Below the pieces are notes generated by a model that was not told where the DNA came from, did not search any database, and was given only the letters and a program-made list of their open reading frames with translations. From assembly GCA_028285525.1 (NCBI GenBank), contig JANQOZ010000031.1:1-64000 (forward strand): a stretch of DNA of 64,000 nt. The letters are read 5' to 3'. The stretch comes from Lysobacterales bacterium (lineage in GTDB: Bacteria; Pseudomonadota; Gammaproteobacteria; Xanthomonadales; SZUA-38). Position numbers and translations under genes: made by a program. Shown here piece after piece: positions 24,041-29,465 of this stretch. The number at the start of each line of letters is the position of its first letter. Positions within the stretch are counted from its first letter, which is position 1.

Positions 24041-24745
24041 ATGAACGCACGTAAAACCCTCATTCACGCCATATGCGCGTCAGCCGTTCTTGTGGGCACT
24101 CAAGCCATCGCCCAGGACATTCAGGGCGAAGATGCGGAGCTCAGCTACAAAATGGGTTACGACATCGGCGAGCGTATGCAGGAGATGGGGATCAAGAACC
24201 TCGATCCGTCTGCCTTCTCCGCGGGCGCTATGGACGCTATGGCTGATAAGGACAGCCAGCTGTCCGAAGCGCAGTCCAGCGCGGCAACCGCCACCCTGAC
24301 GCGGCTCCAGTCCGAAGAGATGGACCGGAGGCGCCTTGAGCTCGCCAACGCCGCGGAAAACAACCTGAAGATCGGGAAAACCTTTCTTGAGGAAAACGCG
24401 CAGCGCGACGGTGTCCAGGTGACTCCCTCAGGCCTGCAGTATGAAGTGGTTCGCGCCGGCGACGGACCCCGCCCCAAGGCGACGGACACGGTTCGGGTTC
24501 ATTACCAGGGCACGCTGATCGACGGGACCGAGTTCGACAGCTCCTATGGCCGTGGCGAGCCGGCAGTTTTCCCGCTGAATCGCGTGATTTCCGGCTGGAC
24601 CGAAGGGCTGCAGCTGATGCCGGTGGGCAGCGAATACCGCTTCGTTATTCCGTCAGACCTGGCCTACGGTGGGCGGAATCAGGGCAAAATCGGCCCGAAC
24701 TCAACGCTCATCTTCAAGGTCGAGCTCCTCGGCATCGAGGGCTGA
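24041..24745 (+). CDS. FKBP-type peptidyl-prolyl cis-trans isomerase, Mip/FkpA-like, exported
   Basis: The ATG at 24041 is chosen over one six codons upstream because it begins a standard signal peptide (MNARKTLIHAICASAVLVGTQAIAQ). The 234-residue protein has the helical dimerisation region of Mip/FkpA (SYKMGYDIGERMQEMGI...RRLELANAAENNLKIGKTFLEENA). An FKBP domain follows (VHYQGTLIDGTEFDSSYGRGEP ... VISGWTEGLQLMPVG ... PSDLAYG). It should act as a periplasmic folding catalyst and chaperone. Confidence 0.94.
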   Translation: MNARKTLIHAICASAVLVGTQAIAQDIQGEDAELSYKMGYDIGERMQEMGIKNLDPSAFSAGAMDAMADKDSQLSEAQSSAATATLTRLQSEEMDRRRLELANAAENNLKIGKTFLEENAQRDGVQVTPSGLQYEVVRAGDGPRPKATDTVRVHYQGTLIDGTEFDSSYGRGEPAVFPLNRVISGWTEGLQLMPVGSEYRFVIPSDLAYGGRNQGKIGPNSTLIFKVELLGIEG

Positions 24746-24753
24746 TCGCCGCC

Positions 24754-24794
24754 CCGACCCTGGCAAAGCCAGGATCCGGTCGGACCTCATTTTT
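24754..24794 (+). terminator. Probable terminator of the FKBP gene
   Basis: CCGAC and CCTGGC pair with GCCAGG and GTCGG around an AAA loop, with a four-base bulge in the 3' arm. The stem is followed by CTCATTTTT. It lies in the 41-base gap between the convergent FKBP and lasso B1 genes, and its T-run enters the end of the latter. Confidence 0.55.
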
Positions 24795-25074
24795 CAGTTG
24801 GCTCAGCGGCCTGGCGCACCAGGCCGCTGTTGAGTAGATCCTCCAGCAGCGCCGCCACGTCGGTATGTGCCTGCGCCTCGCTGACGTCAAAATCCTGTGC
24901 CAGTCGCCCCGCGGCCGCCGCCGGATCCTGCAGGTCCAGCACGTAAAGAAACGCTGCGCAGGCGGTGTCGTTCAGCTCGTAATACTGCCCCTTTTCGGTA
25001 TCCAGCAGTACCATCGCATCGCCGGTGCGCTGACACATCACGTGTTCCGGAAGGCTGTAGGTCGCTTCCGTCAT
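24787..25074 (-). CDS. Lasso peptide B1 protein (PqqD-like leader-binding RRE)
   Basis: The 95-residue protein has the PqqD-like winged fold signature VLLDTEKGQYYELNDTACAAFLYV. The N-terminal beta strands that would pair with the leader peptide are followed by helices (AAGRLAQDFDVSEAQAHTDVAALLEDLLNSGLV). In split lasso systems this RiPP recognition element grips the YxxPxLxxxG leader motif and delivers the precursor to B2. The start overlaps the B2 stop by four bases, and it is the last gene of the cluster. Confidence 0.92.
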   Translation of the reverse strand: MTEATYSLPEHVMCQRTGDAMVLLDTEKGQYYELNDTACAAFLYVLDLQDPAAAAGRLAQDFDVSEAQAHTDVAALLEDLLNSGLVRQAAEPTEK

Positions 25075-25454
25075 GGTGGCGACAGGTCCCGAGCCTCCGG
25101 ACCCTGAAGGGGGTGGTGGGTGCCCTCCGACCAGCTTCGATCGCCGAGCGTCAGCCAGGCGTGGGCAGAAAAGGCCGGCTCGACCTGGGTGCCGAGCCGG
25201 AGCTGTACCGGGTAACCCTGCTGCCGCAGCTGCTTAGCGGCGGCAACACAGCGGCTGAGACAGGTGGACCAAGGCAGAAAGGCGGTACGCTCAAAGTCCT
25301 CGAGCGGCGATCGATCCTCCACCCAGTCGCGCGCGAGCCCCTCGGGTGGCGGCTTGAGCAGCTCGCCCGCGGCGGCCTGAAACCCTTGCGTGCGGAGCCT
25401 GGAGGCGGCTCGCGAAACCAGCCAGATCGCCCGGAACGTGGCCATCAGCGCCAT
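25071..25454 (-). CDS. Lasso peptide B2 leader peptidase (transglutaminase-like)
   Basis: The 127-residue protein has the B2 cysteine-protease pattern: nucleophile Cys65 in STCLSRCVAAAKQLRQQGYPVQLRLGTQ, His98 in FSAHAWLTLGD and Asp105. It cuts the precursor after the leader so that the cyclase can use the new N terminus. Family B2 proteins usually have CLxRS; here the Ser is Cys69. It overlaps the kinase gene by 10 bases, and is followed by B1 with a four-base overlap. Confidence 0.93.
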   Translation of the reverse strand: MALMATFRAIWLVSRAASRLRTQGFQAAAGELLKPPPEGLARDWVEDRSPLEDFERTAFLPWSTCLSRCVAAAKQLRQQGYPVQLRLGTQVEPAFSAHAWLTLGDRSWSEGTHHPLQGPEARDLSPP

Positions 25455-26407
25455 GGTGTCAGAGTCTCAAGGCACGCCACCATCGCAGGCAGCGCGGCCG
25501 GCACCTGGCGATAGCTGAGGCTAAGGACCTGCGTCTGCTGGGCCAGCGTGGCGGCAAAGCTCAGGTGGCGGCGCAGGCCTTCGGGCGAGAAAAGCCGACC
25601 GGCGAGCGTGTGTTCGATCAGCCCCAGCGTTGCCTCTGTCGCGCCAAGTGTTTGCACCGTCGGCGTCGACAGCCCCTGGCTGGCCGGCCCGCTATCTGAC
25701 GCTTCCGGATGTAGCAACACCAGATGGGTGATGGCGCAATCGGTCTCGTCGAGTGCGGCTCGCCACTGGGGCCATTTCGGCTGCGGGTAGTGATCCGGGC
25801 AGCGCGCGGTTTCGGCACTGCAGCGGACCGCCACCGTATCGTCAGCCCAGAGTTCGGCGCCCGCATCGGCGAGCGCCCGGCTGAGGGTGGTTTTTCCGGC
25901 GCCGCTGGCGCCGAGCAGCAGGGTCAGCCCGGTGCGGTGGCGAAGTGCCGCGGCGTGCAGGCAGTAGACGTCATGTTGGCTCAGCACCAGCGGGAGCAGC
26001 GGACCGCAGAGCGCTTCGGTGAGCTCGTCGGCAGACATTCTGGCCGGGTAACGGAGCCGGTCGGGCAGCTCGATGGCGAAGCTGCCGAGATCCTCGAGCT
26101 CCACGGCCATGCGGTCGGCGTCGCCGCGAACCACAACGTCGCGCACCCGCCGGCCAACCAGCCCGCGTGATGAGCGGCGCCAGGGAGCGGTCACGGGCGA
26201 CTGCGCGTTATCGTGATGACCAGGCGTTTCATGGTTTGCTGACGGTTTCGCCACGGATCGGTCGTCGGGAAAGGACTCGAGGCGCGGCAGCGGCTGATCG
26301 ACCGTCAAATTCAGGCCCGCGATGCGATAGCGGTGGGCGGTTTGACCCCGGCTGGGCGTGCGGCCGACGTTGAGCGTGGGTGATTCGAACCCGGTTTGCG
26401 CGGCCAC
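25445..26407 (-). CDS. HprK-related kinase of the lasso cluster
   Basis: The 320-residue protein starts at a GTG only five bases after the precursor stop. Residues 1-100 are a variable N-terminal part (partly His/Asn/Pro-rich linker near 55-75). The HPr-kinase-like P-loop GASGAGKTT is at 166-174, followed by LWADDTVAV with Asp189-Asp190 as likely metal or catalytic acids. Homologues in paeninodin-type clusters phosphorylate the C-terminal Ser of the precursor. Here the predicted core ends in Arg-Pro, so the acceptor is unclear. Alternatives are Ser9, Thr3 or Thr14 of the core, or a different function. Confidence 0.85.
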   Translation of the reverse strand: MAAQTGFESPTLNVGRTPSRGQTAHRYRIAGLNLTVDQPLPRLESFPDDRSVAKPSANHETPGHHDNAQSPVTAPWRRSSRGLVGRRVRDVVVRGDADRMAVELEDLGSFAIELPDRLRYPARMSADELTEALCGPLLPLVLSQHDVYCLHAAALRHRTGLTLLLGASGAGKTTLSRALADAGAELWADDTVAVRCSAETARCPDHYPQPKWPQWRAALDETDCAITHLVLLHPEASDSGPASQGLSTPTVQTLGATEATLGLIEHTLAGRLFSPEGLRRHLSFAATLAQQTQVLSLSYRQVPAALPAMVACLETLTPWR

Positions 26408-26412
26408 GCCGC

Positions 26413-26568
26413 TCAGGGCCGAAGCGTACCCGGATTGCCGCTTTCGCCGACGCCGGGCGTCGGACCGAGGGTGACATCACGGACGTCACCGCGGGGGATC
26501 AGCCGGGGCTCGCGGTAAGGCTTGCGCTGCGTGGTCGCCGGCTTCTGATCGGGTTGACGGGGTTTCAT
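26413..26568 (-). CDS. Lasso peptide precursor
   Basis: This 51-codon gene lies in the 212-base gap between the cyclase and kinase genes. The leader (1-34) has Tyr18, Pro21, Leu23, Gly27 and Thr33, exactly the YxxPxLxxxGxxxxxTx pattern read by B1 proteins, with the universal Thr at position -2. The predicted core (35-51) is GPTPGVGESGNPGTLRP. Gly1 and Glu8 are spaced for an eight-membered macrolactam ring, leaving a nine-residue tail (S9-P17). Arg16 is the only bulky charged tail residue and may act as a plug. The start is ATG; the ribosome site is weak (ACAGG). The core matches no lasso peptide I can recall. Confidence 0.93.
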   Translation of the reverse strand: MKPRQPDQKPATTQRKPYREPRLIPRGDVRDVTLGPTPGVGESGNPGTLRP

Positions 26569-26619: not shown

Positions 26620-28392
26620 TCAGGTGAACTTCTGCTGCCATCGGGAGGCGCTGACGCAGCACCAGAGGATGTAGAGACTGAAGCCCGACCAGTCGTTTTG
26701 CCGCCAGCGATCCTCGAGCCAGGACGCGTCAATGTAGGGCTGCCAGTGGTCGGCGAAGCTGAGCGCCTGACGCACCTTGTCCCGATGGTCCTCGAGCACC
26801 GCCTGACGAAACATGGGCTCCAGCGTGGTTTTGTCGAGCCGGCTCGTAACGGCTGAGGGCAGGCGGCCATCCATCATCCGGCGGGTGATGGGTTTGGTCA
26901 CGTCGGCATGGGGATCGAGCCAGCAGTCGGCGGGCAGGCTCAGAAAGAACTGCACGAGATTCCACTGGCGGTAGGGAAACCGGTATTCCACGCCCCAGGC
27001 CAGGCCCTGCAGATAGCCCAGATGGGCGGCGCGAGCGGTGGTGCTGTTAAGGCAACCTTCAACCCGATCGACCTGGCTGATCGACCCGTAGATCGGATGA
27101 TCCCGGCCTGCGGTTGTCAGCAGGGACCGGCTGTGCTCCGTCAGCCAGGGGCGGGAGGGCGTTCGGCGGCCGCGGGAGATGCCGTTGAGCGGCCCCAGGC
27201 GTCGCAGGATGGGATCGCGCCAGAAGGCCGGGTTTGCCCTCAGGCGTTCGGCGAGCGTTGTCAGTGACCGAAGAGGCTGGCGAAGAAATCCGTCGCGCAG
27301 CGAATAGGGGTAGCCGAGGTAAAGCTGGTCGGCAAAGTCTCCGGTCACAACGCCCCGGTGGCCCCGCTCCCGCGCCCGAACGGCCAGCCGCCAGCGCATG
27401 GCCTGGTAGGCGTCCTGCTCCGGACCGCAGGCGAGCGCCGGCGTCTTCTCATAGGCTTCGCCGAGGGGCTCAGCGTCGTCACAGTCGATTTCGGTCAGCG
27501 TCATGTCGAGCTGGCGGCAGACTTGCCTTGCCAGCTCATGTTCCTGACAGGCCGGCCAACGATCGAGCCGATAGGTGAACCCATGCCTCAAACCGCTGAC
27601 GGCCGCCGCTGCGGGGGAATCGAGGCCGCCGCTGATGGCGATGGCATCGTCGTCTGACCGGGTTGCCGCAACCGCGCTGCGCAGCCGCTCAAGCAGCCCC
27701 TCTCGCTGTTCCGCGGGCTTCAGACGCCGGACTGTCGGGTCATAGCGAAAGCGCCAGTAGCGTTGTGGCACCGGGCCCGCGCCCGGGCTGAGCTCCAGCC
27801 AGTGCCCCGGCGGCAGCGACCTGACGCCGGCGACCGGCGTCAGCGACGCGGGCGGCGGCTCAGCGGCAAAAAAGTTGGCCAGGTACGCCGGCTCCGGCTG
27901 CGGACGCTCCGGCCACAGCATGCGCTCGTCCGTCGCGAACCAGTAGGCGTCCTCCGTCTCGGCAAAAAATGCGCCCCGACTCCCCAGCGGGTCTCGAAGC
28001 GCCAGCGCCGTGCCGTCAACGCGATCGACCAGCAGTAGCACGAAGCTGCCGCTGAACCACTGCGCAACCTCCGGGCCACGCGCTGCGACGAGCTCGAGCG
28101 CTTCTCGGGCTGTCGGCCCGTCGGGATCCAGCTGCCCCCACAGCAGCCCGCAATAGCGGGTATCGAGCTCGATGACGGGTTCATAGGTAGCGTGGTCATA
28201 TTGCGCTGCCCACGCCAGTGGGTGACCGAGGGCGCCGACCCGCAGGCGCTGCCAGGCGAAATATTTTTCAGGCTGATCGAGCCTCAGGCGGGCGCGCTCG
28301 AGACGCTGACCAAAGTCCTGCTGAGTGGCCCGATGATCCCGATCGGAGTTCGGCTGTCTGGGAACCCTCGCGAGCAGCGCGCCGGCTGTCAT
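26620..28392 (-). CDS. Lasso cyclase (asparagine synthetase homologue, C protein)
   Basis: An open frame continues to 29001, but the real start is the ATG at 28392, which overlaps the stop of the nucleotidyltransferase gene by four bases. The 590-residue protein has a glutaminase-like N-terminal half (ALGHPLAWAAQYDHA, RDPLGSRGAFFAETED) without the catalytic Cys2. The synthetase half has the PP-loop AIAISGGLDSPAAAAV. Lasso cyclases adenylate the ring Asp/Glu side chain and let the new N-terminal amine attack it. The missing Cys2 fits, because no glutamine ammonia is needed. Confidence 0.93.
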   Translation of the reverse strand: MTAGALLARVPRQPNSDRDHRATQQDFGQRLERARLRLDQPEKYFAWQRLRVGALGHPLAWAAQYDHATYEPVIELDTRYCGLLWGQLDPDGPTAREALELVAARGPEVAQWFSGSFVLLLVDRVDGTALALRDPLGSRGAFFAETEDAYWFATDERMLWPERPQPEPAYLANFFAAEPPPASLTPVAGVRSLPPGHWLELSPGAGPVPQRYWRFRYDPTVRRLKPAEQREGLLERLRSAVAATRSDDDAIAISGGLDSPAAAAVSGLRHGFTYRLDRWPACQEHELARQVCRQLDMTLTEIDCDDAEPLGEAYEKTPALACGPEQDAYQAMRWRLAVRARERGHRGVVTGDFADQLYLGYPYSLRDGFLRQPLRSLTTLAERLRANPAFWRDPILRRLGPLNGISRGRRTPSRPWLTEHSRSLLTTAGRDHPIYGSISQVDRVEGCLNSTTARAAHLGYLQGLAWGVEYRFPYRQWNLVQFFLSLPADCWLDPHADVTKPITRRMMDGRLPSAVTSRLDKTTLEPMFRQAVLEDHRDKVRQALSFADHWQPYIDASWLEDRWRQNDWSGFSLYILWCCVSASRWQQKFT

Positions 28393-29465
28393 CCTCGATC
28401 GACGCCGCCCGCACTTCGGCCGCGCGAGGCGTTGCCCAGCGCTTTTGCTGCGCCCCCAACCAGGCGTTGCAGGTACCCGATCGGATGAGCGCCGAAGCCC
28501 CGCGCATTCATGAACTGGCGGGAAGGAAACAGGAGCTGGCGCAGGTAGCGCAGCCGCGAGCCAACGCGGGGCAGGGCGCGCAGGTCCTGCAGGATGGTCG
28601 GGCGGCCTGACACGTAGTGGCGCGTCCGTTGTCGGGCGCCGGCCAGCAGCCGCTCGCGAGCCGTTTCGCAGTAACTGGTGCCCAGCGTGCGCGCGCATAG
28701 CGCCAGCGCCGCGCTGCCGATCGGTGCCAGACCCAGCCGCAGCGTCAGCGCGACCAGATCGGAACGCTGGGTCGGCGTCAGAAGCTCCCAGATGAGATGC
28801 AGGTCGAGCAGCCACTTCATCGCCGGTCGATCGGCGTGGTGCCCGAGCAGGTGCGTCGCCGCATGCAGCCAGGCGGCCTCGGGCCCCAGGACCAGCCGTC
28901 CCGGCGACGCCTCGCCGCTCATATCTCTCAGCACGGGGTACGAGAGCGCCGCGGCCAGCTCCGACCGGTTGCTGCTCTGCCAGTGGAGATCGAGATGGCA
29001 AATCGGGCGATCGTCCTCAACCAGGGTGAACCGCTGCTGGGTCATGATCAGGTCACCGTCGACGGCGAGTTCCGGTCGGTAGCCCAGCGCGGTCAGTGCA
29101 GCGCAGGCCCCGTCGCGGGTTGCTGGATCGATCAATAAGTCCAGGTCACCGACGGGGCGCATCGCCGGTTCCGGGTAGAGCCAGTGGTTGAGGCCCGCGC
29201 CCTTCAGTACCAGCGGTGCTTTCAGCGCCGCCAGCGCCTGCGGCCAGTGCTGCTGCCAGCTGAGCCACTGAGCGGAGTAGGCGCTGCGCCAATCGCGGAG
29301 ACGCTGACGTACGTCCGGCTCAAGCTCCAGCTCGTCAGCCAGCGCAATCGCCATACCCGCCAGACCCTGCTGATGCAGCCAGTCGAAACGCAAAGGTTTG
29401 CCGGCGGCCAGGTGCTTCATCGCCCTCCGGGCAGATGCCAGGAATGCCTGCGGGTCGGGTTTCAC
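28389..29465 (-). CDS. Nucleotidyltransferase-family protein of the lasso cluster
   Basis: The 358-residue product starts at GTG. It has the nucleotidyltransferase motif MRPVGDLDLLIDPATRDGA (about 104-120), followed by ALTALGYRPEL and HLDLHWQSS, as in the NTP_transf_5 family. Members recur in proteobacterial lasso clusters with HprK-like kinases, where modification of a phosphorylated peptide has been reported. It is the first gene of the cluster, 57 bases from divergent ugd. A -10-like GATAAT lies on the minus strand at 29501-29506, with only a weak -35. Confidence 0.85.
   Translation of the reverse strand: MKPDPQAFLASARRAMKHLAAGKPLRFDWLHQQGLAGMAIALADELELEPDVRQRLRDWRSAYSAQWLSWQQHWPQALAALKAPLVLKGAGLNHWLYPEPAMRPVGDLDLLIDPATRDGACAALTALGYRPELAVDGDLIMTQQRFTLVEDDRPICHLDLHWQSSNRSELAAALSYPVLRDMSGEASPGRLVLGPEAAWLHAATHLLGHHADRPAMKWLLDLHLIWELLTPTQRSDLVALTLRLGLAPIGSAALALCARTLGTSYCETARERLLAGARQRTRHYVSGRPTILQDLRALPRVGSRLRYLRQLLFPSRQFMNARGFGAHPIGYLQRLVGGAAKALGNASRGRSAGGVDRG

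Follow-up and report, generated by a model that had tools for sequence, protein, structure and literature searches.

A conserved precursor gene and split-B operon predicted to yield a phosphorylated lasso peptide in a Lysobacterales bacterium

Most work on lasso peptides has dealt with compact clusters whose products vary. The paeninodin, Sphingobium yanoikuyae (SyanA) and pseudomycoidin clusters (PadeK, ThcoK, SyanK, PsmK/PsmN) have split B proteins and a kinase, and these kinases phosphorylate the C-terminal Ser of the peptide (PMC9266682). The kinase BsfK of Bradymonas instead phosphorylates Ser3 of the BsfA core, in which the ring is G1-D8; it also accepts Thr and is stimulated by B1 (PMC10368454). 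The locus described here lies in a window of 64,000 nucleotides, the whole stretch of DNA that was analyzed.

Precursor gene and operon

Six minus-strand genes are arranged in the order nucleotidyltransferase-C-A-kinase-B2-B1 (N-C-A-K-B2-B1). The N/C, K/B2 and B2/B1 pairs overlap by a few bases (4 bp for N/C) and A and K are spaced by 5 bases, so that the genes look like one operon; a 51-base gap precedes A. The features are as follows.

24041..24745, plus strand: FKBP-type prolyl isomerase with a signal peptide, convergent with B1, not claimed as part of the operon
24787..25074, minus strand: B1, PqqD-like RiPP recognition element, 95 aa, predicted leader binder (PF05402, E 1.3e-13)
25071..25454, minus strand: B2, leader peptidase, transglutaminase-like, 127 aa (PF13471, E 4.7e-13)
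25445..26407, minus strand: K, HprK-like kinase, 320 aa, GTG start, predicted to phosphorylate the precursor
26413..26568, minus strand: A, lasso precursor gene, 51 aa plus stop (from translation and conservation in relatives)
26467-26568, minus strand: leader codons of A
26416-26466, minus strand: core codons of A
26458-26460, minus strand: codon of core Thr3
26443-26445, minus strand: codon of core Glu8
26440-26442, minus strand: codon of core Ser9
26620..28392, minus strand: C, lasso macrolactam synthetase, asparagine-synthetase-like, 590 aa (PF00733, E 3.9e-21)
28389..29465, minus strand: N, nucleotidyltransferase-family protein (PF14907, E 1.4e-28)

The minus-strand translation of 26413-26568 is MKPRQPDQKPATTQRKPYREPRLIPRGDVRDVTLGPTPGVGESGNPGTLRP followed by a stop, giving the 51-aa precursor MKPRQPDQKPATTQRKPYREPRLIPRGDVRDVTL/GPTPGVGESGNPGTLRP (leader/core), and the plus strand yields an unrelated product across the same interval. 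The 51-codon frame proposed by the first-pass annotation was thus reproduced exactly, and the coordinates agree with its placement of the gene between the cyclase and kinase genes on the same strand. The leader residues that it had listed, Tyr18, Pro21, Leu23, Gly27 and Thr33, are all at their positions. Gly1 and Glu8 of the core (precursor residues 35 and 42) are likewise spaced as it had described for a Gly1-Glu8 ring, a reading that is backed by homology. Its assignment of Arg16 as the only large plug candidate holds in part: Arg16 stays a candidate and Leu15 is another, the equivalent position being Phe15 or His15 in relatives. Of the features that mark lasso precursors, this one has an RRE-type leader (YxxPxL...G), Thr at -2, Gly1 and an Asp/Glu at positions 7-9, and the adjacent C, B2 and B1 genes have conserved catalytic or diagnostic residues, all of which agrees with the earlier lasso precursor reading. 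The precursor had no match among solved structures.

C matched the lasso cyclase model NF033535 significantly (E 2.9e-20) but under its curated cut-off, while PF00733 scored above cut-off; the protein does not have the N-terminal Met-Cys of AsnB, and its ATP-site SGGxDS is retained across relatives. B2 scored 45 bits against NF033537 (lasso_biosyn_B2, cut-off 33) and has one Cys and one His that are invariant among 25 homologues, and B1 scored 70.3 bits against the NCBIfam lasso PqqD model NF033530 (cut-off 70). K gave weak matches to HprK-related sequence models. Its predicted structure (mean pLDDT 85.9) aligned with PEP carboxykinase (PEPCK; Z 13.2, rmsd 3.9, 235 residues) and with HPr kinase/phosphorylase (HprK/P; Z 10.6, rmsd 2.7, 121 residues), and H151, G171, K172, D189 and D190 are invariant among 29 homologues. 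The same His, Lys, Asp, Asp set was reported to be catalytic in PadeK/ThcoK (PMC9266682) and BsfK (PMC10368454). N, which lies beside C in four genomes of the window's family, is probably a tailoring enzyme acting on phosphate. The operon contains no transporter or isopeptidase gene and nothing else pointing to export or self-protection. In four kinase-containing clusters of other genomes (L034, L035, L036, L045), no B2 was found with the profile used; their B2 may have diverged or lie elsewhere.

A large exopolysaccharide region (29487-60166) lies directly upstream of the operon. It contains ugd, UXS, galE, RfaH-like, MarR_EPS-like and asnB genes, many glycosyltransferase genes, and genes for a Wzc-like tyrosine autokinase and a WecA-like protein. 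The adjacency of ugd to the lasso operon is retained in the window's family, and the position of the operon beside this region may be due to chance.

Conservation, inheritance and a scattered pathway

A kinase search in 101 relatives gave 14 loci in further genomes, and tblastn found a homologous precursor near the kinase in 14/14. Eleven positions, falling in both leader and core, were invariant in an alignment of 13 precursors (A1): Y18, P21, G27, R30, D31, T33, G35, G39, G41, S43 and G44. The precursor profile matched 41 of 398 genomes within the same order. Among other genomes, it matched 6 of 368 in a sample of the class and 3 of 397 in a sample of the phylum, these three all weakly. In about 40 genomes of the order the leader is similar and the core follows a pattern like G-[GAP]-[ST]-P-G-x-G-[DE]-S-G, and every parsed core (47/47) has Gly at position 1 and Asp/Glu at position 8. 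Most of the public records that carry the precursor are MAGs under the labels Lysobacterales, Alcanivoracaceae, Arenicella or Gammaproteobacteria; the others are one deltaproteobacterial contig and two Anaerolineae/Anaerolineales contigs. A scan of genome contigs with the window's cyclase, by a method that needs near-exact stretches, found no relative; the relatives came from the precursor alignment. In C-A pairs of Arenicella and similar gammaproteobacteria (L055, L065, L066, L068), cores such as GGTLGEGESG occur without an adjacent kinase. Genomes G047 (L125 and L122) and G065 (L121) have at least two precursor-cyclase pairs of this family, with differing cores.

These results bear on two findings that the first-pass annotation had said would count against it, namely that the frame is not conserved in related clusters, or that a different precursor is found nearby. 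The frame is conserved, the window yielded no further precursor, and the gene is single-copy in its own 6.2-Mb genome. The claim that the core is new stands in the sense that its motif was found in no paper of the open-licence literature searched. The precursor itself, however, belongs to a widespread conserved family and is not an isolated novelty. Among open-licence papers, none was recognised as describing lasso peptides of this order.

The gene was also compared with its copy in a same-genus genome (Nei-Gojobori). All 17 core residues are identical, the core codons showing 5 synonymous and 0 non-synonymous differences (dN 0, pS 0.33), while the 34 leader codons show 7 synonymous and 9 non-synonymous differences. 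A short frame, below the usual gene-calling size, could be a random ORF or the remains of a decayed gene from which no peptide is made, and the NCBIfam leader model NF033521 (lasso_leader_L3) indeed gave only 15.5 bits (cut-off 19), with 17 of 20 model positions matched. A loose leader-plus-core pattern has one occurrence over all six frames of the window, where shuffles predict 0.16. The conservation of frame, leader and core in about 40 genomes, the unchanged core, and the operon enzymes, all intact and under purifying selection, refute that explanation, which we give next to no probability. The evidence supports 26413-26568 as a real lasso peptide precursor gene; threading, ring closure and phosphorylation of its product are what we infer from it.

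Gene content, order and synteny are the same in four genomes of the window's family, in all of which (4/4) the lasso operon is flanked by the same FKBP gene on one side and by ugd on the other. In the same-genus pair, dN/dS was 0.17-0.19 for C, N and B2, about 0.31 for K and B1, and 0.01-0.06 for the flanking genes, with comparable dS for most genes (Nei-Gojobori). The cluster has therefore long occupied this position and evolves under purifying selection. The lasso enzymes are 61-76% identical, versus 92-99% for the flanks. Because dS is alike in most lasso enzymes and flanks, this lower identity reflects faster protein change, and the idea that the cluster had recently been acquired by horizontal transfer was rejected.

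In one related family (f8), ten genomes were checked for the location of A, K, B2, C and B1. Here a small A-K-B2 cassette holds the precursor, kinase and B2 genes, mostly behind pepN, and no C or B1 was found within several kilobases of it where the contig was long enough. The cyclase of this family lies elsewhere in 10/10 genomes, directly behind rlpA in 6, and a PqqD protein lies elsewhere in 8/10, beside an FKBP gene and arranged as in the window in 5. The three places are largely syntenic within the main genus.

A-K-B2 loci: L058, L060, L063, L076, L120 and others, behind pepN
C loci: L142, L143, L145, L148, L149, L151, behind rlpA
B1 loci: L169-L174, beside an FKBP gene and a sigma-factor-like gene

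The adjacency of FKBP and B1 is conserved in f1, f10 and f8 genomes, including relatives with the other lasso genes elsewhere. Its presence in both the window's family and f8 suggests, at the level of gene order, that it is ancestral. The peptide cores contain prolines, and we make no claim that the FKBP prolyl isomerase acts on the peptide. No paper recognised as describing such scattered lasso genes was found among open-licence papers.

The separation of A-K-B2 from C and B1 also bears on whether a lasso is made at all. The product might be an unthreaded branched-cyclic or a linear phosphopeptide made by reused lasso enzymes, and the unusually small, Gly/Pro-rich core and the cyclase score under the curated cut-off are in line with this. 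However, the whole-genome searches found the family cyclase, and mostly the PqqD protein too, so the cyclase-less cassette was rejected as a source of a lasso-free peptide; moreover, Gly1 and Asp/Glu8 are kept in all parsed cores and bulky residues recur around positions 15-18. We therefore consider an unthreaded product quite unlikely.

Phosphorylation site, pathway and possible role

A phosphorylated lasso peptide from a split-B cluster is probably the product of the operon. Evidence against the lasso model comes from the small, glycine-rich core with weak plugs, from the cyclase score, and from the operon having neither transporter nor isopeptidase. As for the residue that is modified, the core here ends in Pro, and a C-terminal Ser is found in 0/26 distinct kinase-linked cores. 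Ser/Thr at core position 3 is present in 26/26 and Ser9 in 25/26 of them. Both are also kept in precursors without an adjacent kinase (19/21 each), whose kinases may lie elsewhere in the genome, so conservation alone does not prove a phosphosite.

Ser9, directly after the ring-closing Asp/Glu8, was at first favored as the target of the kinase for its invariance in alignment A1, and its frequency among the cores and the missing C-terminal Ser of the paeninodin-type kinases speak for it. It was displaced by the BsfK paper, in which Ser3 is the known experimental ring phosphosite in a G1-D8 core (PMC10368454), and by two cores without Ser9: L127 (GGSSGKSEHGR) keeps Ser3 and the adjacent kinase, and L130 keeps Ser3 with a kinase 2 kb away. 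A lasso peptide phosphorylated on Ser9 is now a doubtful reading. The BsfK precedent, the constant Ser/Thr3 and the L127 core favor Thr3, which on this comparison is rather more probably the phosphosite, though not with high confidence.

By analogy with known RREs, B1 would bind the leader via YxxPxL...G. The linear precursor would be the substrate of K, with Thr3 in the future ring as the most likely site by comparison with BsfK, and ring phosphorylation would precede leader removal and ring closure. B2 is expected to cleave after Leu34, placing Thr33 at -2, and C would activate Glu8 and couple it to the amine of Gly1, closing the ring around the tail; the plug is likely Leu15/Arg16. Judging from PsmN, the phosphate may be decorated by N.

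The nearly frozen core between families, the purifying selection, and the vertical inheritance at one chromosomal place all speak for a stable role. They suggest that the product may serve a fixed physiological function, for instance signalling, in the producer or in its relatives, and not be a diversifying antibiotic. We propose only tentatively that a vertically inherited, nearly invariant, ring-phosphorylated lasso peptide acts as an endogenous signal or regulator across the order, its pathway being kept even when unclustered. If this is true, some lasso peptides are something other than variable antibiotics encoded in compact clusters. A core nearly frozen across families, and a pathway split over three syntenic loci in one related family, were unexpected, and cluster-based genome mining would miss pathways so arranged. 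Since the residue that the best-studied lasso kinases modify is absent from these precursors, which hydroxyl is modified becomes testable, as does the use that the producer makes of a conserved phosphorylated lasso peptide.

Likeness to described clusters

The C-terminal Ser of the paeninodin type is absent from the kinase-linked precursors (0/26). The pseudomycoidin cluster, like the present operon, has a nucleotidyltransferase-family tailoring gene (PMC9266682). The bsf cluster of Bradymonas sediminis (Duan et al. 2023, PMC10368454) shares split B1/B2, C, an HprK-like H-K-D-D kinase and an N gene with it, and has a D gene that is missing here. BsfA resembles the present precursor in its ring from Gly1 to an acidic residue at position 8 (Asp in BsfA, Glu here), its position-3 hydroxyl (Ser in BsfA, Thr here), its YxxPxL leader and the lack of a C-terminal Ser. 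The two differ at the C-terminus (Asp in BsfA, Pro here). They also differ at leader position -2, where BsfA has Ile and the present precursor has Thr33, invariant in A1, in place of the Ile/Val by which the Bsf type is defined. The other defining feature of that type, Ser/Thr3 with a Gly1-Asp/Glu8 ring, is found in 26/26 kinase-linked cores. Taken together, the cluster is of the phosphorylated split-B lasso kind and closest to the bsf type, as judged by these shared features.
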